Source of the DNA: a virus
DNA length: 27,482 nt
Virus record (IMG/VR): IMGVR_UViG_3300035698_012370
Span: 1-27,482 of that record
Strand: one strand, 5' to 3'
Shown here: piece after piece, positions 1 to 21,056 of the stretch
Layout: each line of letters opens with the position of its first letter
Numbering within the stretch: position 1 is the stretch's first letter
The notes under the pieces: model-generated
What the model was told of the DNA's origin: nothing
The model's database searches: none
The model's input: the letters and a program-made list of their open reading frames with translations, nothing else
Position numbers and translations under genes: made by a program

Positions 1-94
1 ATACCACTACCCGCTTTTTCTGAGAGGAGGTTCTGAAAATTTACATCACAAAAGTCAGCTGTATTTCAAGCCTTTAATTACGAATGTTATTACA

Positions 95-515
95 CTGGAT
101 AGAATGATGTTTCGAAACTTAAAGAAAAGTTATGAGTTTAATAATGTTACTTATTGTTTGTTACTAAATTTTTGCTTGATGCTATTGCATCTTTATATTC
201 TTGAGTTGAGTCATTGAATTTGAATACTCCTGTAGCTGAATGTGCTAATCTAATTCTATCTTGATCGGGTGCCATTTCAAAAAGAACTTGATCGAGAGTA
301 AAGTCTCCCTCTTTGATAAAACCTCTATAGGTTGTCATTTCTTTTAATAAATAAGAACCTACGTAAATTGCTAGGAATGAATTGTCACTAACAATATGAG
401 TAACTTTGTAAACATCTGCTCCATCGATGCTAAATTCTAATCCTTCTTTTATTTTTCCTTTTTTCATAATAATTTTATTTTGTTTCTTTAAGTTCCAGAA
501 CATTATTCTATTCTG
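95..515 (-). repeat. Cassette 1: matched inverted-repeat arms around a 106-aa gene
   Basis: The left arm at 95-127 and right arm at 483-515 are inverted copies of one another (27 of 33 positions by hand count). They enclose the gene at 147-467. The left core is TTTCGAAA (110-117). The right core reads TTCCAGAA on the plus strand (493-500), which is TTCTGGAA on the coding strand. The outer segment (GATAGAATGATG against its partner) is specific to this cassette and does not match the other four. The stop codon lies about 30 nt from the left core and the start codon about 26 nt from the right core. No further arm is seen in 1-94, so this is the gene-downstream end of the array as visible here. 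Confidence 0.85.
147..467 (-). CDS. Hypothetical protein of cassette 1 (106 aa)
   Basis: The family is not recognised. From the ATG at 467 the protein begins MKKGKIKEGLEFSIDGADVY and ends NLVTNNK. It is soluble and mixed in character, with likely beta strands in the first 55 residues and an acidic-basic C-terminal part; there is no signal peptide, membrane segment or cysteine motif. The frame stays open upstream to 620, but that extension runs straight through the right arm of the inverted repeat. The ATG at 467 lies 26 nt from the arm core, as in the neighbouring cassettes, and follows an A/T-rich leader (AATTATTATG) of the sort seen across the window, so I chose it. It is the most downstream gene of the leftward array. 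Confidence 0.7.
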   Translation of the reverse strand: MKKGKIKEGLEFSIDGADVYKVTHIVSDNSFLAIYVGSYLLKEMTTYRGFIKEGDFTLDQVLFEMAPDQDRIRLAHSATGVFKFNDSTQEYKDAIASSKNLVTNNK

Positions 516-518
516 GCT

Positions 519-710
519 GCAAATCTGTCCTATAATTACGTTCTGATGTTTACTTTTACATAAGTATATGATATTATATATAATGACACCTATGACTATA
601 TGCATTCTAATCTGACACATAGCTGTATAATTGCATTATAATTAGTGTATAACATCATAGCTAACCGTAAGTAGACCAAAACTATTGACATCACAAATTT
701 ACCTTGTTTT
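519..710. other. Gene-free spacer between cassettes 1 and 2
   Basis: This 192-bp stretch separates the right arm of cassette 1 from the left arm of cassette 2. Other neighbouring arms are separated by only 1 to 17 nt. I see no credible gene. The DNA is about four-fifths A+T, with TATATATAATG-like tracts that could hold a minus-strand promoter for cassette 1, but no clear pair of promoter boxes can be assigned. It could be the remnant of a lost cassette or an insertion. Confidence 0.4.
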
Positions 711-1160
711 GATATTGAATAAGTATTTCGAAACTTAATAGATTATATTAGTATTATTTATAAATTGGATTGTCTACAATTTCTATTTCCTTTTCATCAA
801 AACCTTTAGAAAGTAAAAACGTTTTGATAATTTTTTTATCTACTCCTTTCCCTCCTATGTGCCAAGTGGTTACATCATCAATTTGTTTTTCACTCTTATA
901 ATCATATATAGTAATAACTTGTTTTTTATTCATTTCATTCTCTTCCTTTGTGAATATCCAAGTAAGTCTTACTTTATCATCTCCTGAACCATCAACTGAT
1001 TCATTATTTAATAACTTATATAATTTTAGAGTGATAGCTTTTAAATATACCCCTTTAAAACTGGTAGAGTATGAGTCATCAATTAAATGTGATTTGTTAA
1101 ATGTTTGCATAATTTTTATTTAATTACATCCATTAAGTTCCAGAATACTTATTCAATATT
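711..1160 (-). repeat. Cassette 2: matched inverted-repeat arms around a 118-aa gene
   Basis: The left arm at 711-739 and right arm at 1132-1160 match as inverted copies at 25 of 29 positions. Apart from the outermost base, every difference falls in the core: TTTCGAAA (726-733) against TTCTGGAA on the coding strand (plus-strand TTCCAGAA, 1138-1145). The cassette-specific outer segment is ATATTGAATAAGTA. The arms enclose the gene at 754-1110, with 21 nt between left core and stop codon and 28 nt between start codon and right core. Confidence 0.88.
754..1110 (-). CDS. Hypothetical phage protein of cassette 2 (118 aa), possibly DUF7448-like
   Basis: The protein begins MQTFNKSHLIDDSYSTSFKG. Its central part reads KVRLTWIFTKEEN followed by ITIYDYKSEKQ and WHIGGKG (roughly residues 47-90). 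A Trp-containing strand, then an 'IYDYK' strand, then 'WHIGG' recalls a small conserved phage family that I associate with DUF7448; this is from memory and unverified. There are no membrane segments or cysteines. The leader is A/T-rich without a Shine-Dalgarno. The gene sits alone inside its own inverted-repeat pair and is read leftwards like the other cassettes. Confidence 0.75.
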   Translation of the reverse strand: MQTFNKSHLIDDSYSTSFKGVYLKAITLKLYKLLNNESVDGSGDDKVRLTWIFTKEENEMNKKQVITIYDYKSEKQIDDVTTWHIGGKGVDKKIIKTFLLSKGFDEKEIEIVDNPIYK

Positions 1161-1177
1161 ATTTTAAAATAACGTAT

Positions 1178-1417
1178 CATAAGAATAAGGTTTCGAGACT
1201 CAACAACGTTAGTTTAATTATAATTAGCTTTAGTTTCCTTATTTTCCTTTTTGGTTTTATGAACCAACTCATTATAACAATGTTCACAAAGAACATCATA
1301 CTCATATATAGCAAATACTTCATCAACATAGACTTTGTCTCCACATACTTCACAATAATTTATATCATTAGGCATAATATTTTAATTTGTGTTAAGTCCC
1401 AGAATCTTATTCTTATG
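1178..1417 (-). repeat. Cassette 3: matched inverted-repeat arms around a 53-aa zinc-ribbon gene
   Basis: The left arm at 1178-1204 and right arm at 1391-1417 match at 22 of 27 positions. The cassette-specific outer segment is CATAAGAATAAG. The cores differ from those of the other cassettes by the same A-to-G change in both arms: left TTTCGAGA (1191-1198), right TTCTGGGA on the coding strand (plus-strand TCCCAGAA, 1397-1404). The change therefore occurs jointly in both arms, which is direct evidence that they evolve as a pair. The right arm abuts the left arm of cassette 4 with one base between them. Confidence 0.88.
1214..1375 (-). CDS. Small CxxC/CxxC zinc-ribbon-like protein (53 aa)
   Basis: A short gene from ATG at 1375 to TAA at 1214. 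The protein begins MPNDINYCEVCGDKVYVDEV, continues through CEHCYNELVHK, and has a Lys/Glu/Asn-rich tail. Cysteines at residues 8, 11, 30 and 33 form a CxxC-x18-CxxC arrangement typical of a single zinc-ribbon or treble-clef knuckle; metal binding is inferred. It is flanked by cassette-3 arms: stop 16 nt from the left core, start 22 nt from the right core. Its function is unknown. Small zinc ribbons in phages are often nucleic-acid binders or host-protein modulators, but nothing here decides that. Confidence 0.75.
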   Translation of the reverse strand: MPNDINYCEVCGDKVYVDEVFAIYEYDVLCEHCYNELVHKTKKENKETKANYN

Positions 1418-1418
1418 T

Positions 1419-1655
1419 AATCAAAGGAATGTTTCGAAACTCAAATGGGTTGAGTAATAATTTAAATGAATAGACTTATAATACTTTTAGTAATAACTCC
1501 AAGATAGAAATTACTCACTGGTAATTGTCCTGATAATATCCAAGCGATGAAACAAAAACAATCGATCGATAAAATAGTAATAATTGAATAAAATAAAAAT
1601 TTTAACATAATATATATTTAAGATTAGATTTGAGTTCCAGAATATTCCTTTGATT
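1419..1655 (-). repeat. Cassette 4: matched inverted-repeat arms around a 48-aa membrane-peptide gene
   Basis: The left arm at 1419-1445 and right arm at 1629-1655 match at 23 of 27 positions. The outer segment AATCAAAGGAAT is specific to this cassette. The cores are TTTCGAAA (1432-1439) and TTCTGGAA on the coding strand (plus-strand TTCCAGAA, 1635-1642). Both arms carry CTCAAA just inside the core where cassettes 1, 2 and 5 carry CTTAA, another change shared by the two arms. Only two bases separate the right arm from the left arm of cassette 5. Confidence 0.88.
1462..1608 (-). CDS. Small hydrophobic membrane peptide (48 aa)
   Basis: A short gene from ATG at 1608 to TAA at 1462. The protein begins MLKFLFYSIITILSIDCFCF and continues IAWILSGQLPVSNFYLGV before a hydrophobic C-terminus. 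Nearly the whole first half is aliphatic/aromatic, which predicts one or two membrane passes, or an N-terminal anchor. No family is recognised. The reading frame fits the cassette geometry (stop 23 nt from the left core, start 27 nt from the right core), which supports its being real despite its size. A role at the host membrane, such as superinfection exclusion, is conceivable but not shown. Confidence 0.6.
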   Translation of the reverse strand: MLKFLFYSIITILSIDCFCFIAWILSGQLPVSNFYLGVITKSIISLFI

Positions 1656-1657
1656 TT

Positions 1658-2024
1658 ATATTGATAAGATATTTCGAAACTTAATAATATAATTATTATT
1701 AAATTTATTTAGTTTGCTCTAAGAGTATAGTTTTTGCAATTTCTAATCCTTCAATCTTTGCAATAGCCATATCTACATTTAGTGCTTTGGTTTGATACTC
1801 TCCTGATGTATTAAATACATTTGGATATGTGTATTGTTTATACCTATCATCGGTTAGTTTAAGTTTAATATCATTTGCTGTAAATAATATCCTTTCATTA
1901 TACTCTCTAATTTCATTATACGCATAATCAATTTTCTTTTGAATTTCTAAAATAGCATTTTTGTTTGTCATAATATTATTTTTATTATTTAATATTATTA
2001 AGTTCCAGAATATCTTATCAATAT
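1658..2024 (-). repeat. Cassette 5: matched inverted-repeat arms around an 88-aa gene
   Basis: This is the longest and best pair: left arm 1658-1691 and right arm 1991-2024 match at 30 of 34 positions. Three of the four differences are the usual core positions (TTTCGAAA at 1672-1679 against coding-strand TTCTGGAA, plus-strand TTCCAGAA at 2003-2010). The outer segment ATATTGATAAGATA is specific to this cassette. The right arm is the promoter-proximal end of the array. A TTGACA box on the minus strand (2042-2037) lies just outside it. Confidence 0.9.
1705..1971 (-). CDS. Hypothetical helical protein of cassette 5 (88 aa)
   Basis: The protein begins MTNKNAILEIQKKIDYAYNE and ends EGLEIAKTILLEQTK. 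The first 35 and last 25 residues look strongly helical, with heptad-like spacing (ILEIQKKIDYAYNEIREYNERI). A more polar middle (DDRYKQYTYPNVFNTSGEYQ) separates them. A small coiled-coil or helical-hairpin protein is plausible. No family, cysteine motif or membrane segment is recognised. The ATG follows an A/T-only leader and lies 32 nt from the right arm core. It is the first gene of the leftward array. Confidence 0.75.
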   Translation of the reverse strand: MTNKNAILEIQKKIDYAYNEIREYNERILFTANDIKLKLTDDRYKQYTYPNVFNTSGEYQTKALNVDMAIAKIEGLEIAKTILLEQTK

Positions 2025-2042
2025 TTATTATTTATTTGTCAA
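2012..2042 (-). promoter_or_regulatory. Candidate promoter of the leftward cassette array
   Basis: On the minus strand a perfect TTGACA (2042-2037) is followed after 19 nt by TAAGAT (2017-2012); the alternative GATAAG sits at 17 nt. The -10-like hexamer lies inside the right arm of cassette 5, so transcription would begin around the TTCTGGAA core. If so, most of the 5' arm of cassette 5 would not be in its own mRNA. Spacing is not ideal and the region is very AT-rich, so chance is a real alternative. Confidence 0.3.
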
Positions 2043-2094
2043 CGAACTTAAAAATATATAACTATATTCTTATATATATTATAATATGGAATAG

Positions 2095-2117
2095 GTTAAA
2101 AGTACATGCCTTTTAAC
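2095..2117. other. Perfect 8-bp hairpin in the gene-free region
   Basis: GTTAAAAG (2095-2102), a seven-base loop, and CTTTTAAC (2110-2117) form a perfect stem. No clean T-run follows on either strand, so a simple intrinsic terminator is not convincing. It may be a protein-binding palindrome in the control region. Confidence 0.4.
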
Positions 2118-2184
2118 ATTCAAATACAACTCTTAGGTATTGTAAACAGCTTGAAACGTAGTCCAAAATGATACTGAGAGATAC

Positions 2185-2215
2185 GTATGTAAATAACATA
2201 TATGAATATACATAC
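2185..2215. repeat. Interrupted palindrome GTATGTA...TACATAC
   Basis: GTATGTA (2185-2191) and TACATAC (2209-2215) are inverted copies that enclose the perfect palindrome CATATATG (2197-2204). It lies about 100 bp outside the iteron block and could be an operator or part of an origin. Confidence 0.35.
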
Positions 2216-2313
2216 CTTTATGAATGTATCGTATGTGACTCATACTTAACATATAAGAACTTTAACCGTATATAGGCATATACTATTATTTTAAAATAAT
2301 CTATAGATATGAT

Positions 2314-2522
2314 TGTACAATAACATATTCTTATTACATAATATTATAAGACATAGTAATAGATACCTAGCCTGTACAACTATTAGTATTGTTACATAAT
2401 ATATCCTACCCTAAAATACTACTTCCTTAAGAATATCATATTTTCTACTTAGCCTTTACAAATATCATATATTATTACATAATAATAACCTGTACAAGTA
2501 TGTAAATATATTACATAATATC
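2314..2522 (+). repeat. Four iterons: TGTACAA-N12/13-TTACATAAT
   Basis: A two-part motif occurs four times in the same orientation: TGTACAA at 2314, 2373 and 2491 and the variant TTTACAA at 2455. Each is followed after 12 or 13 bases by TTACATAAT (2334, 2392, 2475, 2511), usually extended to TTACATAATAT. Three copies are preceded by CC. Unit-to-unit spacings are 59, 82 and 36 bp. The fixed internal spacing shows the two boxes belong together, as expected for binding sites of a replication initiator, ParB-like or other sequence-specific protein. The block lies about 200 bp upstream of the ParB-like gene. Confidence 0.65.
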
Positions 2523-2548
2523 GATAAAAAAAATCACTCTTTCTCTGG

Positions 2549-2585
2549 GCCTTATAGGCAACCTAAATTCTTTAGCAAAGTTTAG
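2549..2585. other. Two adjacent hairpins in the gene-free region
   Basis: GCCT-TAT-AGGC (2549-2559) is a short stem. It is followed by CTAAA-TT-CTTT (2563-2573), loop AGC, and AAAG-TTTAG (2577-2585), a nine-pair stem with a two-base bulge. The local sequence is less AT-rich than its surroundings. It could be a small structured RNA, a terminator-like element or a protein site; nothing in the sequence decides this. Confidence 0.35.
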
Positions 2586-2603
2586 ACTTGAGAATGGGGT
2601 GAA

Positions 2604-2653
2604 CAGTGTGTACTTATTTGTTAGTGTGTAAATGTGTGTATTTAGTGTGTACT
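2604..2653 (+). repeat. GTGTGTA direct repeats upstream of the ParB-like gene
   Basis: GTGTGTA occurs four times within 50 bp (starting about 2606, 2624, 2634 and 2645). Two copies sit in the longer identical string AGTGTGTACT (2605-2614 and 2644-2653). They differ from the iterons just upstream and lie 75-125 bp before the ParB-like start codon. An operator for autoregulation is a reasonable guess. Confidence 0.45.
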
Positions 2654-2675
2654 ATGTATTATAATAAAAAAACAA

Positions 2676-2684
2676 GGGGGGGGG
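2676..2684 (+). repeat. Nine-G homopolymer tract
   Basis: A run of nine G follows seven A's (2666-2672 region) in otherwise AT-rich DNA, about 45 bp before the ParB-like start codon. Such tracts slip in replication and can vary promoter strength or spacing. They are also a common place for assembly error. Confidence 0.6.
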
Positions 2685-2729
2685 AAGATTAGATAGCTGC
2701 TCTCATAATTTTTCGAAAAAAAATTTCTT

Positions 2730-3584
2730 ATGCAAAATATTTTACTTACATTAATAGATGCTGATAAAGAACAACCTAGACAGCATTTTGTCAAAACAGA
2801 GCTTACAGAGCTGAAACAATCTATTTCTGAGAATGGTATCCTTCAACCTTTAATTGTTGAAAGTAATTATGACCCATCACAAGCTGGCAGATATCTGCTT
2901 ATAGATGGAGAAAGGAGATATAGATGTGCTCTTGACTTAGAACTTGACTCAGTGCCGATTGTTATTATTGAGGGCCCTCTGACTTATGAAGAAAGAACGG
3001 TCAAACGTTTTAATATACAAGAACAACACAAGAACTGGAATATGTTTGATAAAGCTAGAGCAATCATGCAACTGAAGCAAGAGTCTGACATGTCTATTAT
3101 AGAGATTTCCAGAAAACTTAACATTCCAGCGCCGATAGTGCACAACTGGTTGAGTATCAATGAATTTTCAGTGAGGGCACAGGAATTGATAGTCAATAAA
3201 CAATTGAAATTTACATATTTAATTTTCTTAATTCGTGTAATTAAGTATTACATCAGTATAACTGATTTTACTAGAGAAGAGATTGAGGACAAGTTAATTG
3301 CAAGATTAGAGAACGATGAGTTCAAGGTGGTAGCTGATATGCAAAAATTTTCTAAGTTTATTTTAGAAGACGGTTATGAAGATGAAAAGATTAAGTTCCT
3401 ACAGACACCTGAGTATACATTACAAGCATTCTTTGAAAAGACAGCAGTGGACATACAATTGTTAAATGAAATGATTAACAGGAAAGCAAAAGAATTGTCA
3501 GCACTATTAGATACATGCAGAAAAGTTAGTCAAAAAAATTTAGATGAATTAGAAATATTAATTGGAGCAATTGAAATGTTATGA
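2730..3584 (+). CDS. ParB/Spo0J-like DNA-binding protein (284 aa)
   Basis: The N-terminal half has the ParB signature: QPRQHF (residues 15-20), the ELKQSISENGILQPLIV segment (25-43), and IDGERRYRCAL (58-68), the box II region that in ParB relatives contacts CTP. Residues about 118-143 (MSIIEISRKLNIPAPIVHNW) form a helix-turn-helix. The remaining 140 residues are mostly helical with coiled-coil character and lack a recognised domain. No ParA partner is seen. In phages such proteins serve in partition, as transcription regulators, or with packaging and DNA-modification genes. It is the first rightward gene after the iteron region, and its TGA stop overlaps the next start (ATGA). The leader (AAAAAAAATTTCTT) has no Shine-Dalgarno. 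Family call is firm; the role is open. Confidence 0.85.
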   Translation: MQNILLTLIDADKEQPRQHFVKTELTELKQSISENGILQPLIVESNYDPSQAGRYLLIDGERRYRCALDLELDSVPIVIIEGPLTYEERTVKRFNIQEQHKNWNMFDKARAIMQLKQESDMSIIEISRKLNIPAPIVHNWLSINEFSVRAQELIVNKQLKFTYLIFLIRVIKYYISITDFTREEIEDKLIARLENDEFKVVADMQKFSKFILEDGYEDEKIKFLQTPEYTLQAFFEKTAVDIQLLNEMINRKAKELSALLDTCRKVSQKNLDELEILIGAIEML

Positions 3585-4363
3585 AAATATGTATCCCTTC
3601 AAAAGGTAGAGCTCACTTGATTAAAACACATTATTTCTTTAACCCGAAAGATGTTTTAATTTTTGTAGAACCTCAGGATGTTGAGATATATAAGAAAATG
3701 AATAGAGAATACACAGTCGTAGATATTCTGGAGAATGACAAAGGTTTAATTTATGCTAGGAAATTTATTATTGATTACATTGATGATGACATTATAATTA
3801 TGTTAGATGATGACATCAATGGATTTTATCTTAGAAATAGTGAAGGGAGGTATGACACATACTATGATATCATGTCAATCTGTAAAGATGCTGAAGAACA
3901 ATTAAAGAAGTATGCAGGATATACCATAGCAAATTTAACTACTCAGCCATATTCTTATTTTGATAATGTCAAGTTGCTAAAAAATTCGGACAGACACATT
4001 TTAAACAAAAGACACATCAGTGCTATGCATTGTTATAATTCTAAATTCATGAAGGACCATAACATTGTAGCTACATTTAATGAAGGGGAAGATGTTGACA
4101 TCTCATTACAAATATTAAAGCATGGTGGAGATATAATGTTTGATTACAATTATGCCTTAGACCATGATTTAATTACACCTGGAGGTATGTCTACGTTAAG
4201 AAAGAAAAATAGCACAACAATTGACACCACAGACAAGGTCCTTAACAACGTTAGAGAGAAATATGGAGACAACTTTATTACTATTACATATGACAAACTT
4301 GGACATGTACTTACTCACAAGATTTCTTTTTCAAAAGCTAAGCAATTGTTTAGTATGACTTAA
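3581..4363 (+). CDS. GT-A glycosyltransferase, likely TAGT (TET-associated) type (260 aa)
   Basis: The N-terminus IPSKGRA (5-11), the early arginine after 'GLIYAR' (55-60), and the metal-binding IIIMLDDDINGF (71-82) fit the phage TAGT glycosyltransferases, which are predicted from comparative genomics to add sugars to modified DNA bases. EGEDVD (168-173) is in the position of the downstream acidic motif of GT-A enzymes. Some other GT2-like phage enzymes share the DDD motif, so the substrate is uncertain. The gene starts inside the stop codon of the ParB-like gene, so the two are probably translated together. No base hydroxylase or other base-modifying partner is recognised in this window; it may lie outside. 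Confidence 0.65.
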   Translation: MKICIPSKGRAHLIKTHYFFNPKDVLIFVEPQDVEIYKKMNREYTVVDILENDKGLIYARKFIIDYIDDDIIIMLDDDINGFYLRNSEGRYDTYYDIMSICKDAEEQLKKYAGYTIANLTTQPYSYFDNVKLLKNSDRHILNKRHISAMHCYNSKFMKDHNIVATFNEGEDVDISLQILKHGGDIMFDYNYALDHDLITPGGMSTLRKKNSTTIDTTDKVLNNVREKYGDNFITITYDKLGHVLTHKISFSKAKQLFSMT

Positions 4364-4380
4364 TGTACATACACTGGATA

Positions 4381-4410
4381 TTGACATATAATTAACATAA
4401 ATAATATATA
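4381..4410 (+). promoter_or_regulatory. Candidate promoter before the portal gene
   Basis: TTGACA (4381-4386) is followed after 18 nt by TATATA (4405-4410) in the only 56-bp gap between the TAGT-like gene and the head genes. A start site seven bases on would fall about three bases before the portal ATG at 4420, giving a nearly leaderless mRNA. The AT-rich context makes chance matches common. Confidence 0.35.
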
Positions 4411-4419
4411 TTAAAACAT

Positions 4420-5898
4420 ATGAGTATACTTGATTTAATCAAAACAGGAAGTTGGACTCCTGTAAAGAAAGCAAAAAAACAAAAGAAAAACATCATGCCA
4501 ATCAGTGAACTGATGGGTGAATTAGGAGTTCGTACTTCTGCTACAATTGGTTCTTACGAAACTGAAGAAAGACCTGATAATAGAACAATTGACTCTTACT
4601 TAGCTATGCAAGATAATGATGGTACTGTGAAAGCAATCACTAGATTATTTTCTATGCCAATCCAAAGTACTCCAATCAAGATTATGGCTGGAGAAAATGA
4701 TAAAGGGGAAAGGCAATTCATTGAAGATGTTTTAATGGGTTCCGAAAGTATGGGTGGTATGTCTACTCCACTACCTTTTGTTATTGCTGATATGACAAGA
4801 GCAATCTTTGAAGGGTTTAGAGTATATGAAAAAGTTCCACAAATAATTAAGGATGGACCACATAAAGGAAAAATAGGTTGGAGAAAGCTTGCACCTAGGG
4901 ATGCAGATACTGTTGAAATCAGAGCGGACAGACATGGAGGATTCAATGGAGTACATCAACAAGCTTATTTTGGTGGAAACTTAGTTGACACTAACATTCC
5001 AGCTGAAAAGTGTATGCTCTTTACATTCCAGAAAGAGAAGCATCCTTTATATGGTGAAAGTATATTGAAGACAGCATACTATCATTACGATAAGAAACAC
5101 AAACTATATTATCTAGCCCACAAGAAGGCTGAAATTGATGCTGTAGGACTAAAGATATTAAAACTAAGTAAAGCAATGGGGTCATCAGAGGTAACTGCCG
5201 CTGAGGATGTTGTGGATTCAATTGGTGTTAATTCAAGAGTTACATTACCACAAGGTGTTGAGCTAGAAGTGAATAGATCGAGCACTGGATATGATGTTCT
5301 ACCATTAATTGAGCACCATGATACACAAATGGTGTTGTCTACACTGACTCAAGCCATGAGCATGGGGACAAAACAGACGTATGGATACACATATGGGTCT
5401 GGTTTTAAACAACAAGGGGAGTTTATTGTGCAAACACTATCTACTATCATGCGTTCAATGGAATATACCCTAAACGAGTGGGCTATTCCGCAGTTAATTG
5501 ATTGGAATTTCAATGGAGGTAGTTATCCAAAGGTTAAATTGATGCCATTGAATAACGAAACACAGGCATATATGCTTTCATTGTTTGAATCACTACTTAA
5601 GAAAGACCCTGATAGAGTTCCACAAGAATTTATTGATAGATTAAGTAAAGAAGCTGCTGAAAAATTAGGATTTGATTTGGAAAAAGAAGAACCTGCTACA
5701 CAGTCTGCTAAAAAAGCTTTTGAAAATGGTAAGAAAACTATTGCAGATGAAAGAAAAGTAGCAGCACCATCTACAGATAACATAACAAAGAAAAAAATAA
5801 ATAGATTAGCAGAAGAATTAAAAGATGAACCTAACTTCTTAGACCACTTTGAAGCTTTAGGACGAGATTATGCAATTAAAAAAATCGAACAAGAGTAA
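4420..5898 (+). CDS. Mu gp29-like portal protein (DUF935 family, 492 aa)
   Basis: The portal is the dodecameric ring at one capsid vertex through which DNA is packaged. Recognisable family features include the early DGTVKAITRLFSMPIQSTPI region (about residues 67-86), the WRKLAPRDADTVEIR segment (150-170), and the YGESILKTAYYHYDKKHKLYYLAHKKAE stretch (about 207-235). The C-terminal tail (about 400-492) is charged and probably faces the neck. The length agrees with Mu-like portals (about 500 residues). It starts the head-gene block, 56 bp after the TAGT-like gene. In Mu relatives a large terminase directly precedes the portal; here that gene is not upstream, so it must lie elsewhere. Confidence 0.85.
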   Translation: MSILDLIKTGSWTPVKKAKKQKKNIMPISELMGELGVRTSATIGSYETEERPDNRTIDSYLAMQDNDGTVKAITRLFSMPIQSTPIKIMAGENDKGERQFIEDVLMGSESMGGMSTPLPFVIADMTRAIFEGFRVYEKVPQIIKDGPHKGKIGWRKLAPRDADTVEIRADRHGGFNGVHQQAYFGGNLVDTNIPAEKCMLFTFQKEKHPLYGESILKTAYYHYDKKHKLYYLAHKKAEIDAVGLKILKLSKAMGSSEVTAAEDVVDSIGVNSRVTLPQGVELEVNRSSTGYDVLPLIEHHDTQMVLSTLTQAMSMGTKQTYGYTYGSGFKQQGEFIVQTLSTIMRSMEYTLNEWAIPQLIDWNFNGGSYPKVKLMPLNNETQAYMLSLFESLLKKDPDRVPQEFIDRLSKEAAEKLGFDLEKEEPATQSAKKAFENGKKTIADERKVAAPSTDNITKKKINRLAEELKDEPNFLDHFEALGRDYAIKKIEQE

Positions 5899-6037
5899 AA
5901 TTGACATTGCAGTTGTTTGTAATAAATGTGGAAAGCATCAAACAGCTGACAAGAAAGAGAGTACCTGCAATTGGCAAGTGTTTAGCGTAAATGAACCTTG
6001 CAGTTGTGGTGGTAAATTTATTATTAAATTAATTTAA
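5870..6037 (+). CDS. Small zinc-ribbon-like protein overlapping the portal end (55 aa)
   Basis: An ATG at 5870, 29 bases inside the portal gene in another frame, opens a frame to TAA at 6037. The protein starts MQLKKSNKSKIDIAVVCNKC and contains NEPCSCGGKF near the end. Cysteines at 17, 20, 33, 44 and 46 (CxxC...C...CxC) suggest a small metal-binding ribbon. Without it there would be a 145-bp gap in an otherwise tightly packed operon, which favours a real gene. No Shine-Dalgarno is present, as elsewhere. Its function is unknown; it is one of three unrelated-looking small CxxC proteins in the window. Confidence 0.65.
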   Translation: MQLKKSNKSKIDIAVVCNKCGKHQTADKKESTCNWQVFSVNEPCSCGGKFIIKLI

Positions 6038-6542: not shown

Positions 6543-8510
6543 ATGCAAAACATCAAATTTAATTTTGAGCCAGAAATCATTAAAGCAAAAACTTCGAAGG
6601 AGAAGGGGTCTTTGGCAGTTTGGGCGTATGCATCTACATATGATGTGGATTCAGACGATTGCCAAATTACTAGAGAAGCTTTAGCAGAAGCGAAAGACGA
6701 TTTGCTAACTTATAGTACTGTACTATTTAATCATGATACTAATAGACCAGTCGGCAAGACAGTGGAAACTAAAATTGACGACAAAGGATTGTTAGTAAAA
6801 ATCATTGTTTCTAAGTCAGAACCTGATTTAATTGCTAAAATAGAAGATGGAACTATAAGTAAATTATCTATTGCAGGTAGAGCGTATGAAACGAACTACA
6901 CCGCACCAGATGATAAAGGTCGAGAAATATTACAAATAACAAAAATAAAGTTGTTTGAAGTATCCTTTGTACCAGTACCAGCTAATTCAAACGCAAAAAC
7001 TATTAGCTCAGCATTTGAAAAGAGTTTAATTACTAAGATGATGAATGCCGATGACGTAGATGTCAAAAATAGTTTATTAGCTGATTTACAATTATTGTCA
7101 GGAAGAATGGTAGGAGATGACAAGGCAGTAGTTGACAAGGTATTAGAGTTCTTTAAAACAACAAATACGAATATGAAAAAAGAATTGAAATACAATTTCG
7201 ATGAAACAACAACAGATAGACCAGTGTTTCAACTAAATCTATCAGATGATAGTTCAGTCGAACTTAGTGAGGACAACACATTCAGAAAACAAATTCTTAA
7301 GAAAGGTAAGTGGCATCACTGGAGTGCAGACAACGGTGTGCTTGACATTACAGACAAGAATTTAGATGACATGGTTGCCAATTTCGAAAAAGGTTTATTG
7401 GATTCAGTTCCTGTACCTTTGACTCATTCAAACAATCCATCAGATAATACAGGATGTGTAACAGAATTGATTAAAACAGAAGATGGACTTGATGCAGTTA
7501 TTGAAATTAAAGATGCTTCTGTGGTTGAAAAAATCAAGGAAGGTTTAATCACTGCAATTTCAGCAAGTTTTGACCCTAACTATATGGTAAAGAAAACAAA
7601 GGAATTTGTTGGCCCAGTACTATTACATGCAGCATTAGTTGCTGAACCATATATCAAAGGCATGACAGGATTTGTTGCGCTCAGTGAGGATTTCGAAGGA
7701 CGGACAGTTGTTTCTTTAGAAGATTCAGAACCTAACGTACAAACTCAATTAAACATGGTATTCAAATTGTTGGGTAACATTCAAAAACAAATTGGGGAAG
7801 ACGAAGAAACTGAAACTACTGAAGAAGATACATCTGCAACAGATGAGAGTACAGACACAGATGAAACAACAGAAGAAGACGTGGAAAAAGCAAAGAAGGG
7901 AGATAAGAAAGGAGACAAATGTAAAACATCAGATGGGAAGGATGGATTATATGCAGAAGATAAAGATGGTAAGTTAGTTTGCAAGGCCACTAAAAAATCA
8001 ATTGAAGACGATGAAGATACAGAAGATAAATCTTCTACGGAGGAATCTTCAGATGAAACGGATGTAGAGGAATCTACAGAAGGGACAGAGGAAGACAAGT
8101 CCGAAGAAGTTGCTAAGACAGATGTTGACCTGTCAGACGCAAATACACTTTATGATAGTTACTTAGAAGCAGGACAAATTGTTCCAGCACAAAAAGAAGC
8201 TTTCATAAACCTTTGTGAGGTAATGAAGTCAGTACAGCTTTCAGATGAAACGGTCGACGTTAAGAAAGCTTTGGATTCATTCCTTAAGTCACAACCTAAG
8301 GTTGTTAACTTCGACGAAGCAGGTGGTGTCGATGACGGTTCAGGTGAAGATGACAAAACAGAAGAAAGCACAACAGTTGTTATGCCAGAAGATGTTAAAT
8401 CATTCTACACTGAAAAAATGAACATGTCAGAAGACCAAGCCACTAAAGCTTGGGGAGAAGCACAACAATCAAATGTTGGGCAAACAGAGAAGTCAACACT
8501 GTTTGAATAA
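6543..8510 (+). CDS. Prohead protease-scaffold with two protease-like domains (655 aa)
   Basis: The protein matures the procapsid by cleaving scaffold and capsid precursors. Residues about 20-160 form an HK97/XkdF-type serine-protease domain with LFNHDTNRPVGK (His64) and KLSIAGRAYE (Ser109). Residues about 225-382 form a second domain like Mu gpI, with VPLTHSNN (His295) and ITAISASF (Ser340), ending LVAEPYIKGMTGFVAL. A very acidic Glu/Asp/Thr/Ser stretch follows (about 410-545), broken by a basic piece with two cysteines (KKGDKCKTSDGKDG and KLVCKATKK). The C-terminus (IVPAQKEAFINLCEVMKS and EDQATKAWGEAQ) resembles the scaffold end of gpI proteins. Which His-Ser pair is active cannot be told from sequence. 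Mu gpI is much shorter. Confidence 0.8.
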   Translation: MQNIKFNFEPEIIKAKTSKEKGSLAVWAYASTYDVDSDDCQITREALAEAKDDLLTYSTVLFNHDTNRPVGKTVETKIDDKGLLVKIIVSKSEPDLIAKIEDGTISKLSIAGRAYETNYTAPDDKGREILQITKIKLFEVSFVPVPANSNAKTISSAFEKSLITKMMNADDVDVKNSLLADLQLLSGRMVGDDKAVVDKVLEFFKTTNTNMKKELKYNFDETTTDRPVFQLNLSDDSSVELSEDNTFRKQILKKGKWHHWSADNGVLDITDKNLDDMVANFEKGLLDSVPVPLTHSNNPSDNTGCVTELIKTEDGLDAVIEIKDASVVEKIKEGLITAISASFDPNYMVKKTKEFVGPVLLHAALVAEPYIKGMTGFVALSEDFEGRTVVSLEDSEPNVQTQLNMVFKLLGNIQKQIGEDEETETTEEDTSATDESTDTDETTEEDVEKAKKGDKKGDKCKTSDGKDGLYAEDKDGKLVCKATKKSIEDDEDTEDKSSTEESSDETDVEESTEGTEEDKSEEVAKTDVDLSDANTLYDSYLEAGQIVPAQKEAFINLCEVMKSVQLSDETVDVKKALDSFLKSQPKVVNFDEAGGVDDGSGEDDKTEESTTVVMPEDVKSFYTEKMNMSEDQATKAWGEAQQSNVGQTEKSTLFE

Positions 8511-10019: not shown

Positions 10020-10703
10020 ATGTCAGAAAAAGAACAAGTTATAGCAATAGGACTACCTACAACAGGAAACCCACATTGGAGATTTTCTGCTGATTTGATG
10101 GGTCTACAAATGGTTTGCAATACAGTTGTGTTATGGCAACCAAGAACGATGATAGATACTGCTAGAAATATTTTAGTAAAGAAAGCATTAAGTAATGTAG
10201 ATGTTACTCATCTATTAATGATTGATGATGACATGACATTCCATCCAGACATGCTTAAAAGATTGTTAGAACATGATGTAGATATTGTTGGTGGATTAGC
10301 ATTTAAACGAACTGCTGATTTTGCACCATGTGTATATAGAAAAAATCCTAAAGATGGAGAGCATTATTCTATTTTACCAGAAATATTTCAAGAAGTTGAT
10401 GCAATCGGTACTGGGTGTATTTTAATAAAAAGAGAAGTATTAGAAAAAATTAAAACTCCTCAGTTTGAAACATGGTATGACAAAGATAATCCTGAAAAAC
10501 ATTGGAGTGTAGATTTTGATTTTTGTATGAAAGCCAAAAGACAAGGGTTTAAAATTTTTGTTGACCCTGACGTAGAAGTTGGACACATCGGAGATGCTCC
10601 AATTATTTCAAAACAAACATTTTTGTATCATCAAAAAATGACTAATAAAGCTTTAGAAGCTGGAAAACAGGTCGAAGAGGATATTAATAAAAATAAAAAA
10701 TAA
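10020..10703 (+). CDS. Small GT-A glycosyltransferase, first of three related copies (227 aa)
   Basis: The enzyme has ARNILVKKAL (48-57), the metal/nucleotide-sugar motif HLLMIDDDMTFHPDML (64-79), DIVGGLAFKRT, DAIGTGCILIKREVLEKI and WSVDFDFCMKAKRQGFKIFVDPDVEVGHIG, in the order found in GT2-like GT-A enzymes that lack a C-terminal extension. It closely resembles the protein at 20342-21055 and more distantly that at 21284-21874. No signal peptide or membrane segment, so it acts in the cytoplasm. It sits between capsid-region genes and directly behind the structured element at 9908-10019. A role in glycosylating a virion protein is a guess from position. Confidence 0.8.
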   Translation: MSEKEQVIAIGLPTTGNPHWRFSADLMGLQMVCNTVVLWQPRTMIDTARNILVKKALSNVDVTHLLMIDDDMTFHPDMLKRLLEHDVDIVGGLAFKRTADFAPCVYRKNPKDGEHYSILPEIFQEVDAIGTGCILIKREVLEKIKTPQFETWYDKDNPEKHWSVDFDFCMKAKRQGFKIFVDPDVEVGHIGDAPIISKQTFLYHQKMTNKALEAGKQVEEDINKNKK

Positions 10704-10706
10704 TAT

Positions 10707-10973
10707 ATGCAAGTTATAAAAGTTACAGCCTCAGGTGTAGTTAGAACAGGTAAAACCGGTGTTCAAGGTGTTACCCTTGTAGCAGGAGCAGATGCAGCAG
10801 CTATTACATTACAAGATACTCTTACTGGAGCAACTGCAACTAAAGACAAAGGTGGAGCAAAAGCATTAGCCAACACTTCACAAGACTCAGCAATGTATGG
10901 TAATCAATTTGATAAAGGTGTGTATGCAACACTAACAGGTACTAACCCTGTAGCGTACGTGTATATAGAATAA
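10707..10973 (+). CDS. Small beta-rich probable structural protein (88 aa)
   Basis: The family is not recognised. The sequence is Ala/Gly/Thr-rich with alternating hydrophobic strands (MQVIKVTASGVVRTGKTGVQ, GVTLVAGADAAAITLQDTLT, then GNQFDKGVYATLTGTNPVAYVYIE), like many small phage head-decoration or capsid-cement proteins. It has no cysteine or catalytic motif. It is packed tightly between the glycosyltransferase (three bases) and the next beta-rich gene (one base), so it is surely translated from the same operon. The start follows AATAAT. Confidence 0.6.
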   Translation: MQVIKVTASGVVRTGKTGVQGVTLVAGADAAAITLQDTLTGATATKDKGGAKALANTSQDSAMYGNQFDKGVYATLTGTNPVAYVYIE

Positions 10974-10974
10974 A

Positions 10975-11274
10975 ATGTCTACAATATTACAATACCCTAT
11001 TGCAGGAACAATTGTTGCTGGAAGTTTATCTGATACAACACTTAAATTTGTGTCTAGTGTATTAAAAATGGTTGCTGTTAAAACAACATCTACAGATATT
11101 ACATATACATTAACTATTACAGACCCAGCATCATACATAATTTATCAAAGAACTGCAGAAACAGGCTCATTTGCTGAAGAAGTTTCATTACCTATGAGAG
11201 GTGTATATACAGTAGCTATTTCTAGTGCTTCAAAAAATGAAGCTATCTCTATACAACTTGCAATTAAAGAATAA
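10975..11274 (+). CDS. Small beta-rich probable structural protein (99 aa)
   Basis: It begins MSTILQYPIAGTIVAGSLSD and has a regular strand pattern (LKFVSSVLKMVAVKTTSTDITYTLTITDPASYIIYQ, then GVYTVAISSASKNEAISIQLAIKE) suggesting an immunoglobulin-like or jelly-roll beta domain. No family is recognised. It shares the Thr/Ser/Ala-rich style of the preceding 88-residue protein and the following 286-residue protein, and the three probably form one structural sub-operon. Spacing is one base from the gene before and two bases to the gene after. Confidence 0.6.
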   Translation: MSTILQYPIAGTIVAGSLSDTTLKFVSSVLKMVAVKTTSTDITYTLTITDPASYIIYQRTAETGSFAEEVSLPMRGVYTVAISSASKNEAISIQLAIKE

Positions 11275-11276
11275 TT

Positions 11277-12137
11277 ATGACAGGAACAGATAAATTTGGT
11301 AAAAAAAGACCCTACGTCAAAGATGTAGGTGTTTCTGATGCAAGTGGTACACGAATTAGTCCATCCACAGAAGAAAAACAAGATGAAATAAAAACTGCAT
11401 TAGACACTGTAGGTATTTCTAATATCACTGATGATAGAATTAACCCTGCAACATCTGACAAACAATTAGAAAATGACCATGACGTCAATGTTAGCAATAT
11501 GATTCCAGCAGTGGAAACAGATTTAGCTACATCAGACAATCAAACAGACGGTTCACAAAAAACACAACTTTATGATGCAGGTGTTGGACCTGCTGAATTA
11601 GATAACTCAACAAACTCATTACAGACAATAGAGTATGAACATCATGAAGTACATTCAGGTAGTGCTTTTGAAGATACAACATACGATTTAGACTTAGACT
11701 CAGGAGATGTATTGTCAATATCTTTCAAAACACCAGATTCAATAAAACAAATTCATATGGTTGCTGCATTTAAAAGTTCTTCAGAAGGACTTGCTGAAAT
11801 ACTAGAAGCACCAACAATAACAGTTGATTCAGGAATAGAACAATCTGCTTATAACAGGAATAGAACTGTCCCAATGTCAACAAGTGATGTTTGGTCTATT
11901 GAAACTGTACCTGTAGTTTCAGAGGTATCTGTTAATGCAACAATTACAGCAGATGGTACAGTTCTTGAGTCTGAAGGCATTGGTACTGGAAAAGATAAAG
12001 GTACAAGTGAGGCACGTAGTGCTGCTGAACTTATTTTAGCAAGAAATACAATTTATGCTTTCAGAATAACAGGTAGTGCTGACAATGGAAATGCATCAAT
12101 AAGACTTTCTTGGTACGAACATACACCAAAGAATTAA
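11277..12137 (+). CDS. Probable virion surface or fibre protein (286 aa)
   Basis: The N-terminal third repeats a motif typical of phage structural proteins that contain 'INPATEEKQD': GTRISPSTEEKQDEIKTAL (about 24-42), DDRINPATSDKQLEN (about 52-66) and ETDLATSDNQTDGSQ (about 79-94). From about residue 125 onward it is beta-rich (YDLDLDSGDVLSISFKTPDS, ITADGTVLESEGIG), ending with NTIYAFRITGSADNGNASIRLSWYEHTPKN, which looks like a compact beta-sandwich. The exact place in the virion is unknown. It is the last structural gene before the sugar island; a 62-bp gap with a hairpin follows. Confidence 0.6.
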   Translation: MTGTDKFGKKRPYVKDVGVSDASGTRISPSTEEKQDEIKTALDTVGISNITDDRINPATSDKQLENDHDVNVSNMIPAVETDLATSDNQTDGSQKTQLYDAGVGPAELDNSTNSLQTIEYEHHEVHSGSAFEDTTYDLDLDSGDVLSISFKTPDSIKQIHMVAAFKSSSEGLAEILEAPTITVDSGIEQSAYNRNRTVPMSTSDVWSIETVPVVSEVSVNATITADGTVLESEGIGTGKDKGTSEARSAAELILARNTIYAFRITGSADNGNASIRLSWYEHTPKN

Positions 12138-12150
12138 CAATGATTACTTC

Positions 12151-12176
12151 ATATGTTATAATATTAAATAACATAT
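12151..12176. other. Nine-pair AT hairpin before the sugar island
   Basis: ATATGTTAT (12151-12159), an eight-base loop and ATAACATAT (12168-12176) form a perfect stem in the 62-bp gap before the CgeB-like gene. A T-run follows 9 bp later (12184-12188), too far for a classic terminator. It may be an operator or a weak terminator separating structural genes from the island. Confidence 0.35.
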
Positions 12177-12199
12177 ACAAATGTTTTTAAAACAGCCAT

Positions 12200-13222
12200 A
12201 TGAAAAAATCACTACACATCGGAGTATTCAATCCTGCATTGATAAATCAAGCATCACCATATTGTGGTGATAATGTTTTTGCAAAAGGGCTTGAATTAAA
12301 TGGATATGAAGTTACTAGGTTTGACTACCGTGCTACTCAATCTCCAGATGTTGATTTGATTAATTTGGCAAACCAATTAGATAAGGACCTGTCCATTGTT
12401 TGGATGGGTAAGTGTGAAAGAATAGCCCCGGAGACAATTGATACATTACGGTCAATATTTCCTGAGGCTATTTTTGTTAAGTGGGTTGCAGATGTTAGAG
12501 ATGAACCTACACAACATGATTTAGCACATAACTCTAAAGTGGATTGGTTCTTTGGTACTTTTGGTGGTGATTATTTAAAGAAACATTTGCTGCCTAACAT
12601 GAAAGGGGTTGCTTCAATAATAACATTTACTGACTCAACATATTATACAGCTGAAGAAGTAGATGATTCTTATTGTTCTGACATTTTATGGACTGGACGA
12701 AGAGGGTTTGGAGATAACCCTGTTAGAAATGAAGTAATTGATACTTTATTAAATGTTGTAGACATTCAATCACAAGAAGCTAAGAATGATAATCATTTAA
12801 ACATTAAGATGTTTGGACATGATGGTAGAACATGGGTTGGGCATCCTGATTATGTAAAATACATTAACGGTACAAAAGTAGGTATTGGGTCAAATAGCTT
12901 TAATCGTAGAAAATACTCTTCTGACAGATTAGGCAACTACATGGCATGTGGTACATTCTATTTAACTCAATATATAGAAGGGTTAGAAGAAGTTTTTACT
13001 AGAGGTACTCATTTAGATTGGTTTTCTACACCTGAAGAGATGTCTGACAAAATTAAATTTTATTTAGAAAACCCAACAGAACGTTACAAAATAGCACAAG
13101 CAGGGAGACAGTTTATATTAGACCATTTTGATGCTAAACCATTAACACTAACATTATTAAGAATAATTGAGACAGGCAAAAAACAAAATGCTTGGGAAGA
13201 TGTATATGTTCAAACAAATTAA
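12200..13222 (+). CDS. CgeB/GT4-like glycosyltransferase (340 aa)
   Basis: The N-terminal half (HIGVFNPALINQASPYCGDNVFAKGLELNGYEVTRFDYRA) is a Rossmann-like acceptor domain, and IVWMGKCERIAPETIDTLRSIFPEAIFVKWVADVRDEP continues it. The C-terminal half carries GIGSNSFNRRKYSSDRLGNYMACGTFYLTQYIEGLEEVF (about 232-270), followed by PEEMSDKIKFYLENPTERYKIAQAGRQFILDHF, the usual end of CgeB-type (Glyco_trans_1_2) GT-B enzymes. Sugar donor and acceptor are unknown. This gene opens the sugar island after the 62-bp gap. A 37-residue frame overlaps its last 17 bases. Confidence 0.82.
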   Translation: MKKSLHIGVFNPALINQASPYCGDNVFAKGLELNGYEVTRFDYRATQSPDVDLINLANQLDKDLSIVWMGKCERIAPETIDTLRSIFPEAIFVKWVADVRDEPTQHDLAHNSKVDWFFGTFGGDYLKKHLLPNMKGVASIITFTDSTYYTAEEVDDSYCSDILWTGRRGFGDNPVRNEVIDTLLNVVDIQSQEAKNDNHLNIKMFGHDGRTWVGHPDYVKYINGTKVGIGSNSFNRRKYSSDRLGNYMACGTFYLTQYIEGLEEVFTRGTHLDWFSTPEEMSDKIKFYLENPTERYKIAQAGRQFILDHFDAKPLTLTLLRIIETGKKQNAWEDVYVQTN

Positions 13223-13319
13223 AAGATTTTTATATTTATCTGCACGTCTAGGTTATTTGAAATTAAAAGAGTGGAAACTTAAGGTATTATTAAGCAAATT
13301 AAATAAACTAAAAAAATAA
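13206..13319 (+). CDS. Small basic peptide linking two glycosyltransferase genes (37 aa)
   Basis: ATG at 13206 lies 17 bases before the end of the CgeB-like gene, in another frame, and the TAA at 13317-13319 overlaps the next ATG (TAATG). The peptide starts MFKQIKRFLYLSARLGYLKL and ends with KEWKLKVLLSKLNKLKK. It has 13 Lys/Arg and one Glu, and forms an amphipathic helix on paper. It fills an otherwise empty 96-bp gap, and start-stop coupling is used by neighbours. It could also be a chance frame or the remnant of a larger gene. Confidence 0.45.
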   Translation: MFKQIKRFLYLSARLGYLKLKEWKLKVLLSKLNKLKK

Positions 13320-14404
13320 TGAAAATAGGTTTTATATCAATATTAGGAGAACGAGGTCAATGGCATGTTACTAAAAATTTCATGAATGCATTACAACATG
13401 ACCATGAGCTATTTTTACTTGCCAGACCTTTTCATGTAAGAGATGGTGTTTATATAGGTGAACTTGAAAATTATGATATTAAAGCTACTGCTACATATGC
13501 TTCAACATATCAATTAAACCCAGAGTATGTAGAAAATTGGGTAAAGGTAAATGAACTTGATGTTGTAGTATTTAACGAAGAGTATGACTGGAGGTTAGTT
13601 GATGCATGTAATAAACATGCTAAGACAGTAACATACTTAGATTATTTCACAGCAGATCAGATAATAATGTTTACTAAATATGATTTAGTAATTGCTTGTG
13701 CAAAACATGCACACAATGTGTTTACTCGACTTGGAGCTAAAAATATGCAATTTATTAATTGGGGTGTAGATGATAAATTATTTAAGCCTACAAAAAATAA
13801 AGATAAATTTACATTTTTCCATTCAGCTGGGTGGGGTGGTATTAATTGGAGAAAATGTTCACCTGATGTTTTAAAAGCATTTGATAGAATTAGAAAGAAA
13901 GGTTATGATTTTACATTACATTTTCATAGTCAAACAGATTTACATTTTTATGACCAAGCATGTAAAGACATTATTGATAAATATTCTGAGGAGGGTTGCT
14001 TAAAAACAACATGGGGGACTGTTGAACATCCTGGGTTATATCATACAGGAATAATTAATGTTGCCCCTTCTATATTAGAAGGACTTGGTTTATTTTTACC
14101 GGAAGGATTGTCATGTGGAATGCCAACAATTACAACAGATGCGGAACCAATGAATCAATTTGTCCAACATGATGTTAATGGTTTACTTGTTAAAACAACA
14201 GGAAGTCATTATAGAAAAGACCCTTATTATTTTCCAGAATATGATGTATCTAGTGAATCATTGGAAGAGATGATGATTACCTTAGGTTCGGACCTTAAGA
14301 TGCAAGAGAGGATGAGTTTGAAGGCACGAGAGGATACACTAGCTATAAATGCATTGGACAAGTTTAATAAAAGTGTATTAACTACATTTAATAAATTATT
14401 TTAG
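13319..14404 (+). CDS. GT4-family glycosyltransferase (361 aa)
   Basis: A GT-B enzyme with the GT4 C-terminal signature EGLGLFLPEGLSCGMPTI (about 254-271), an E-x7-E pair that holds the sugar-nucleotide donor, and downstream DVNGLLV (about 284-290). The N-terminal domain (MKIGFISILGERGQWHVTKNF) is typical of retaining transferases, and NWGVDDKLFKPTKNKDKFTFFHSAGW marks the domain linker. No membrane segment is seen. The start codon overlaps the stop of the basic peptide upstream. It ends with TAG, one of few TAG stops in the window, one base before the next start. Donor and acceptor are unknown. Confidence 0.88.
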   Translation: MKIGFISILGERGQWHVTKNFMNALQHDHELFLLARPFHVRDGVYIGELENYDIKATATYASTYQLNPEYVENWVKVNELDVVVFNEEYDWRLVDACNKHAKTVTYLDYFTADQIIMFTKYDLVIACAKHAHNVFTRLGAKNMQFINWGVDDKLFKPTKNKDKFTFFHSAGWGGINWRKCSPDVLKAFDRIRKKGYDFTLHFHSQTDLHFYDQACKDIIDKYSEEGCLKTTWGTVEHPGLYHTGIINVAPSILEGLGLFLPEGLSCGMPTITTDAEPMNQFVQHDVNGLLVKTTGSHYRKDPYYFPEYDVSSESLEEMMITLGSDLKMQERMSLKAREDTLAINALDKFNKSVLTTFNKLF

Positions 14405-14405
14405 T

Positions 14406-14996
14406 ATGAACCATGATGAAATTCTAAAAAAATACAATTTAAGCATAAGCACTATAAGGTGTACATTTTTAGGTAGACCTATGGGGCAAACATTTGCTGC
14501 ATTACATGTTTTTGAAAAAGTTTTTTTAGAATACCCATTTAAACAACTAATAGAATTTGGCACCTGGAAAGGTGGATTAAGTATGTATTTTTTACTTTAT
14601 TGTTTAAGTGAGAATGCAAAGTTTACTACATATGACACTCTTAAATTACCTGCTTATATAGATGATAATAAAAAAGATATACTTAGACATGTTTTACATT
14701 TTGACAAATATTTTAAAAACAAAGATATTTTTAAAGAAAAAAAGAATATTGTTAATTCAATACAGTCTGCAGGAAGAACATTTTTATTCTGTGATGGTGG
14801 TGATAAACAATTAGAGTTTAATACATTCGCACCATTACTAAAACAAGATGACATTATAGCAGTGCATGATTGGAACACTGAAATATTTTTAAGTCAAATA
14901 ATTGATACTATCAATTCATACAAATTAGAAATGATATATGAAGAAGACTGTCTGCTGTATGACAATAACATTAGAATTTTTAAAAAATTAATTTAA
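14406..14996 (+). CDS. Class I SAM-dependent methyltransferase, CmcI/macrocin-O-methyltransferase-like (196 aa)
   Basis: The SAM-binding motif I is LIEFGTWKGGLSMYFLLYCL (about 48-67). A later acidic pair (FCDGGDKQLEFNTFAPLL, about 127-144) and IIAVHDWN (about 149-156) match the metal-assisted sugar O-methyltransferases in which DGG and HDW sit near the active site. That substrate assignment is an inference from the motifs and the sugar-enzyme neighbours. Length is at the short end for the family. The gene begins one base after the GT4 stop codon. Confidence 0.7.
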   Translation: MNHDEILKKYNLSISTIRCTFLGRPMGQTFAALHVFEKVFLEYPFKQLIEFGTWKGGLSMYFLLYCLSENAKFTTYDTLKLPAYIDDNKKDILRHVLHFDKYFKNKDIFKEKKNIVNSIQSAGRTFLFCDGGDKQLEFNTFAPLLKQDDIIAVHDWNTEIFLSQIIDTINSYKLEMIYEEDCLLYDNNIRIFKKLI

Positions 14997-15019
14997 TACA
15001 CTAACTTACAACATTCATT

Positions 15020-15682: not shown

Positions 15683-15692
15683 TTAAATTATT

Positions 15693-17045: not shown

Positions 17046-17056
17046 TAACAATAAAT

Positions 17057-19451: not shown

Positions 19452-19506
19452 GTGCTTTTTTAAACTAGGTCGAAATTTTTATAAATCTAATATTCTTCTT
19501 AAAATT

Positions 19507-19701: not shown

Positions 19702-19706
19702 AAAAT

Positions 19707-20192: not shown

Positions 20193-20212
20193 AATGACTT
20201 TTGAAGTCATTT
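20192..20212 (+). terminator. Nine-pair hairpin overlapping the preceding stop codon
   Basis: AAATGACTT (20192-20200), loop TTG and AAGTCATTT (20204-20212) form a perfect stem that starts at the last base of the TAA. It could act as a terminator or RNA-end barrier, although no long T-run follows. Its 3' half also belongs to the palindrome CATTTGTTCGAACAAATG (20208-20225), so the two stems compete. Confidence 0.5.
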
Positions 20213-20242
20213 GTTCGAACAAATGCCTTTACATACCACAAC

Positions 20243-20310: not shown

Positions 20311-20341
20311 CTTATTAAAGTAGGTTAAATACTAAAAAGTT

Positions 20342-21055: not shown

Positions 21056-21056
21056 T

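Follow-up and report, generated by a model that had tools for sequence, protein, structure and literature searches.

Five open reading frames on the minus strand at the left end of the window (the whole 27,482-base stretch analysed here, an IMG/VR virus record) each lie inside an inverted repeat of their own, and gene-enclosing repeats of this kind recur in related phages. The panhandle stem that such a repeat forms around its gene is well supported. Our favoured reading, to which we give a probability of about 0.55, is that it acts in mRNA like the processing stalk of ribosomal RNA, with co-transcribed genes individually closed off and then released by a nuclease specific for double strands.

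Inverted repeats around five genes of the window

The record encodes a DUF935-type portal, a head maturation protease and a ParB-like protein. Its five cassettes (Table 1; the genes are simple open reading frame calls) lie where the original prediction had placed them, with the extent corrected from 95-2024 to 97-2024, and the identities between their arms (C1 26/31, C2 29/34, C3 23/28, C4 25/31 and C5 30/33) are close to those previously counted by hand. Among C3, C4 and C5 the neighbouring units abut or overlap by 1-2 nt. The shared core that had been noticed reads RTTCTGGRACTYAA in the 5' arms and TTRAGTYTCGAAAY in the 3' arms, each in five exact copies, one per cassette, and no further copies of either were found elsewhere in the window.

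Repeats were scored ungapped (match +1, transition -0.5, transversion -2), which gave 28.5, 26.5, 25.0, 23.5 and 20.5 for the five in the window and 14.5 for the next-best real repeat. The best repeats in 200 dinucleotide-preserving shuffles of window 1-2700 had a mean score of 13.5, a 95% point of 15.5 and a largest value of 19.5, so that repeats of such quality, whose appearance in shuffled sequence had been named as a ground for rejecting the prediction, did not arise there. Core-pattern scans of viral contigs returned nothing beyond chance matches or already known contigs; among 37 viral contigs with a chance core-like pattern there was no gene-enclosing stem except one weak, AT-rich case, and a second pattern set gave 18 stretches without stems, with stems solely in 3 stretches from contigs already known to bear them. 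Much longer stretches of the related phages, outside their arrays, held few stems or none. A search of Rfam gave no match in the window, and in the relatives solely tRNAs and a group I intron.

Table 1. Positions in the window of the five cassettes and of a candidate promoter
Feature	Position	Strand	Remark
Possible array promoter (tentative)	2018..2042	-	upstream; TTGACA and a weak -10 overlapping the first arm; consensus match only
Cassette 5, 5' arm	1992..2024	-	sense core at 1998-2011
Cassette 5, gene	1705..1971	-	88 aa, helical, without family match
Cassette 5, 3' arm	1658..1690	-	sense core at 1671-1684
Cassette 4, 5' arm	1628..1658	-	touches 3' arm of cassette 5
Cassette 4, gene	1462..1608	-	48 aa, membrane peptide
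Cassette 4, 3' arm	1416..1446	-	2-nt overlap with 5' arm of cassette 3
Cassette 3, 5' arm	1390..1417	-	
Cassette 3, gene	1214..1375	-	53 aa, zinc-ribbon-like; Pfam matches weak, below cut-off
Cassette 3, 3' arm	1178..1205	-	G-C inside core covaries
Cassette 2, 5' arm	1128..1161	-	
Cassette 2, gene	754..1110	-	118 aa; homologue L062:367-729, 42% identity
Cassette 2, 3' arm	710..743	-	
Cassette 1, 5' arm	483..513	-	
Cassette 1, gene	147..470	-	about 107 aa counted from start codon within stem
Cassette 1, 3' arm	97..127	-	

Arrays in related phages

No DNA match to window 1-6000 was found in the phage collection, and portal scans of viral contigs gave 32 and later 56 relatives, many of these records being fragments. 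The array recurs in the closest of them, L010 (portal 72% identical), L061, L062 and L067, with the same core and other arms, and comprises 5 cassettes in L062 and 16 in L067. The more distant G006, G008 and G009 have other cores in their gene-enclosing stems, and additional stems enclose other genes in L156 and L170. Gene orientation is uniform within any array. The single-gene plan that had been proposed describes most of the cassettes, the exceptions being a few stems that span 2 or 3 genes and one without an obvious open reading frame.

Arms around homologous genes were found to be unrelated from phage to phage, although the two arms of any one cassette still match. The arms of window cassette C2 differ outside the core from those of its homologue in L062 (Table 1), and the genes at L010:669-848 and L061:258-485 encode 56% identical homologues with arms unrelated between them. 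There is turnover of gene content between the arrays of related phages, and G008 and G009 have homologous, collinear arrays; near-identical contig pairs differing by the presence of one cassette were not found. In L067, 9 of the 15 gaps between cassettes measure -4 to 3 nt, and upstream of the array there is one sigma70-like site (TTTACA-16-TACAAT). Flavobacterium phage immuto has a region with a weak C2 homologue, in which tight single-gene stems are absent. A portal scan of genomes for possible hosts gave no match.

Structure and covariation of the stems

The stems were grouped into types and anchored on their cores by ourselves. With 29 stems aligned on the core, the type-1 helix extends between about -15 and +12 and has the core close to its middle. 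At position 0 a C stands opposite an A in most stems, with a Watson-Crick pair in 3 of 29; position +3 is G.U in 21 of the 29 and position -3 is often A.C. The flanks of the helix are free to vary in sequence while their pairing is kept: across 28 stems 91.2% of cells are paired, compared to 68.5% (sd 0.9) in shuffles, with 196 double-sided changes against 54 in shuffles, which do not model relatedness, and a covariation score of 0.731 against 0.259. If the partner is shifted by one column, pairing falls to about 49%. The covarying pairs include exchanges of A-U for U-A and of G-C for C-G.

Pairing is also specific to each cassette. For 25 of 26 cassettes the best partner of the 5' arm is the 3' arm of the same cassette, with mean energies of -31 to -37 kcal/mol for own arms and -14 to -16 kcal/mol for others. 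Within the window the means are -31.4 kcal/mol for own pairs and -13.7 kcal/mol for cross-pairing, which bears out the earlier observation that arms match within a cassette and not across cassettes. Minimum-energy folds of whole antisense transcripts contain the panhandle for 5/5 cassettes of the window and 14/16 of L067, the stem being absent from the fold in 2 terminal cassettes of the latter.

The duplex measures 21-34 bp (typically about 28) and its arms are 158-828 nt apart. In 74 nonredundant stems the median distance from the inner end of the stem to the ATG is 18 nt, the values peaking sharply at 17-19 nt, and that from the stop codon to the stem is 12.5 nt, which leaves the Shine-Dalgarno region outside the pairing. 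These distances are about the space that ribosome footprints need for initiation and termination, and the two may be linked.

The strongest evidence for selected pairing is covariation at orthologous positions in the stems of K, a small protein of late operons with the consensus GxxLTIIDASIxDxxQxKAxKDLI. The K gene is alone inside a stem in around two dozen of 38 homologues examined, the phages concerned being divergent, a count that depends on the threshold, and a clear stem is lacking in about 10 of the 38. In 20 orthologous K stems, when aligned, pairing reaches 91.7% compared to 64.6% (sd 1.6) in shuffles, with 122 double changes against 33.5 in shuffles, which ignore relatedness. A scan for K also found a contig in a WOR-3 MAG with one stem (core ATTCTGGGGTTAA) and had no match in the remaining genomes searched from this phylum (147 in all); this contig may be a binned phage. 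A further match to K was a domain in a protein of a Tunturiibacter phage, where a gene-enclosing stem is absent.

Proposed mechanism and alternatives

In the mechanism that we propose, the genes of an array would share one transcript, as the near-abutting cassettes suggest; those of L067 mostly abut, so that space for internal promoters or terminators is lacking. The flank before each start codon would pair with the flank after the stop codon of the same gene in a helix of about 28 bp, with the ribosome-binding site, open reading frame and stop codon in its loop, and the variable parts of the arms would act as a private address that leads a 5' arm to the matching 3' arm among up to 16. The core conserved in mid-helix (C.A at 0 and G.U at +3) would be read by a common factor, and it seems to be placed where a dimeric double-strand nuclease would cut. 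This factor would be an endonuclease specific for double strands, with RNase III or a relative of it as the most probable candidate; no RNase III is recognisable in the phage records, so the enzyme is assumed to be the host's. A cut near the core would then free each gene as a separate mRNA with its ends still clamped, and the phage would presumably benefit from independent, stable messages. RNase III is known to bind and cut the duplexes on either side of 16S and 23S rRNA, which frees the rRNAs from their precursor, and its cleavage of T7 pre-mRNA both matures and protects the mRNAs (PMC8708148). The original prediction had offered an RNA-based control of single genes as one of its explanations, and this is the one favoured by the covariation in type-1 and K stems, the G.U bias described below, the pairing of each arm with its own partner and the fixed spacing to the start codon.

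It is also possible, though we hold it to be less probable than the processing stalk, that the panhandle stays uncut and clamps the mRNA ends, or binds a phage or host protein via its core, thereby controlling stability or translation gene by gene. The structural evidence from covariation, own-partner pairing and the K stems fits this equally well, as does the position of ribosome-binding site and stop codon in a loop with barely sufficient space for initiation and termination. The core, moreover, is conserved beyond what RNase III needs, and a mismatched stem of 28 bp might be bound instead of cut. Against this, the stems of L067 lie nearly end to end on one presumed transcript, where clamping without a cut protects no ends, and RNase III acts on the closest known duplex between 5' and 3' UTRs, that of icaR (PMC3868564).

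RNase III lacks a strong sequence consensus (PMC8708148), and the conserved core, being unlike this, could point to another protein. In a more doubtful variant, a dedicated system other than RNase III would read the C.A/G.U core and turn long phage transcripts into individually closed, perhaps circular, single-gene mRNAs, with the variable arms as an evolved orthogonal address code. An RNA ligase was found in just 1 of 20 stem-bearing records.

The same repeats could be read in DNA, as the sites of a recombinase or transposase by which units are captured, inverted or mobilised (invertible genes, pdif-like modules or transposon ends), and cassette capture and mini-elements were among the original suggestions. 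Units that abut exactly around unrelated genes, the differences in gene content between related phages and a short common core plus flanks would all suit such elements. However, the half-sites match within a cassette and differ from one cassette to the next, a pattern for which a single recombinase would have no use, and the core is asymmetric in step with the direction of the gene (by 25:1 for position 0 and 21:0 for +3) in arrays of single orientation. Inversion or gene conversion would not preserve such an asymmetry, and so there is no trace of inversion. Collinearity of the G008 and G009 arrays also speaks against such elements, and 20 stem-bearing records, some of them fragments, gave no phage integrase or resolvase domain of a tyrosine (PF00589) or serine recombinase.

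The mismatches point the same way. Those between the arms of the window are, with few exceptions, transitions, and RNA of the gene-sense strand would show them as G.U wobbles or A.C pairs. Counted on the gene-sense strand, G.U exceeds A.C by 26:4 in type 2, by 30:7 in type 3 and by 43:14 in K stems (a set that overlaps type 2), with a modest excess outside the core in the type-1 helix body (22:8, P 0.008); in the L156 stems G.U and A.C are mixed. Part of the G.U excess could come from C-to-T mutation biased towards the coding strand; the excess thus supports action in RNA and does not prove it, but such mutation cannot explain covariation that includes exchanges of A-U for U-A and G-C for C-G. 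Taken as DNA cassettes for recombination, the units therefore seem unlikely to us and this part of the original prediction is not supported.

Less likely again is a panhandle of single-stranded DNA, formed by the sense strand in the course of replication or transfer and used, like the attC sites of integrons, as the substrate of a single-strand recombinase. DNA also tolerates G.T pairs, the arrays are cassette-like with one orientation, and some L156 junctions fold into local hairpins. An attC site is, however, a local hairpin at one end of a cassette, whereas here the stem encloses the cassette; hairpins between adjacent cassettes were rejected since local pairing at the junctions is far weaker than that of own arms; a tyrosine recombinase of any kind was lacking from the same 20 records; and the constant distances of start and stop codons to the stem point to translation. 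Action of the stem in RNA and not in single-stranded DNA is supported but not proven.

That the repeats are chance, or by-products of AT-rich spacers, terminators or mirrored promoters, is hardly credible in view of the shuffle control and the 37 contigs and 18 stretches with pattern matches that lack clear stems, despite the high AT content of the region and the -35-like TTGACT at the start of several type-2 3' arms. A promoter role for these arms was rejected (-10 score downstream 3.53, against 3.54 in shuffles), and loops of the lengths found here rule out intrinsic terminators.

Comparison with known systems

Stems that enclose mRNAs gene by gene with private pairing codes are, as far as we could find, apparently undescribed for protein-coding genes, and the earlier statement that no described phage element has this plan holds within the reach of our literature searches, which gave partial precedents only. 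If confirmed, the processing stalk would give phages a route from one transcript to many independent messages with protected ends. The arms would also be a natural source of long-range RNA duplexes that are orthogonal to one another, and the signature of the stem could be searched for in other genomes, where it could point to the hosts of these phages.

Among DNA elements, the attC cassettes of integrons likewise follow one another in a single orientation, one gene to a unit, and carry imperfect inverted repeats, but they have one local hairpin after the gene and an integrase, whereas here the repeats enclose the gene and no integrase was found. Genes likewise lie between inverted sites of about 28 bp in pdif modules and invertible segments; here, in contrast, the half-sites are not conserved among units, inversion is unseen and a recombinase was not found.

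Among RNAs, the 5' and 3' flanks of a single gene pair in the icaR mRNA of Staphylococcus aureus and form an RNase III substrate (PMC3868564). There a short anti-SD motif pairs with the SD and translation is blocked, whereas the stems described here spare the ribosome-binding site and extend over 21-34 bp. The early mRNA of T7, with its R1.1 type sites, is likewise a polycistronic early phage RNA with mismatched double-stranded sites that serve maturation and protection of mRNA, but these sites are local hairpins between genes, and here the duplex spans the gene. The RNase III stems of bacterial rRNA operons (16S and 23S) likewise provide one long-range, unit-specific stem for each unit of a polycistronic RNA. 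In either case the loop holds the functional RNA, here a protein-coding gene and its ribosome-binding site, in up to 16 consecutive units with a fixed C.A/G.U core and with cleavage that we infer. The stems described here share with such a stalk a long-range duplex per unit, compensatory change and a length of two turns around a central site, and in plan they resemble an rRNA-type processing stalk whose units would be single-gene phage mRNAs.

Atypical cassettes

One cassette of L062, a related contig with a five-cassette array, has two arms that do not match each other (1672-1873). Its 3' arm is similar to cassette 2389-2678, and the gene inside is a short relative of the one carried there. 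The cassette appears to be a broken copy or a hybrid. The cassette stem at 3233-3795 of L067, the relative with the longest array (16 cassettes), encloses no ORF of at least 35 amino acids; inside it there may be a noncoding RNA or the remains of a gene. L067 also carries a group I intron and a tRNA gene. At 7258-7779 of L156, a contig with stems around several genes, the 54-nt junctions between neighbouring cassettes are almost the same in sequence and fold into local hairpins, in contrast to the private arms found elsewhere.

Neighbouring repeats, RNAs and genes

Short repeated motifs (TGTACAA, TTATTATGTAATAA, TTGTATTACAATGTAATACA and TTACATATATTACTATATTAC), many of them palindromic, are clustered in the stretch that separates the array from the ParB or portal genes, and are candidate operator, origin or parS-like sites. 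In five contigs the portal gene is preceded upstream by a recurrent noncoding element of roughly 100-130 nt, inside a stem with conserved arms (TTAAGCAGGGACATAA / TTATGTCTCTGCTTAA), which had no match in Rfam and which in L025 adjoins a 12-tRNA array.

Features in the window and in related or further viral contigs
Feature	Contig	Position
Short-motif repeat cluster	window	2300-2520
Short-motif repeat cluster	L010	1602-2291
Short-motif repeat cluster	L062	3249-3476
Short-motif repeat cluster	L067	about 7430-7740
Stem-enclosed noncoding element	L025	4717-4870
Stem-enclosed noncoding element	L028	605-749
Stem-enclosed noncoding element	L030	740-928
Stem-enclosed noncoding element	L031	9717-9889
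Stem-enclosed noncoding element	L034	2399-2568
Group I intron and tRNA gene	L067	17636-17857 and 9378-9450

Between the head and tail genes of the window lies a run of genes (10020-21874) whose products, by eye, look like glycosyltransferases, methyltransferases and a UDP-GlcNAc 2-epimerase-like protein.
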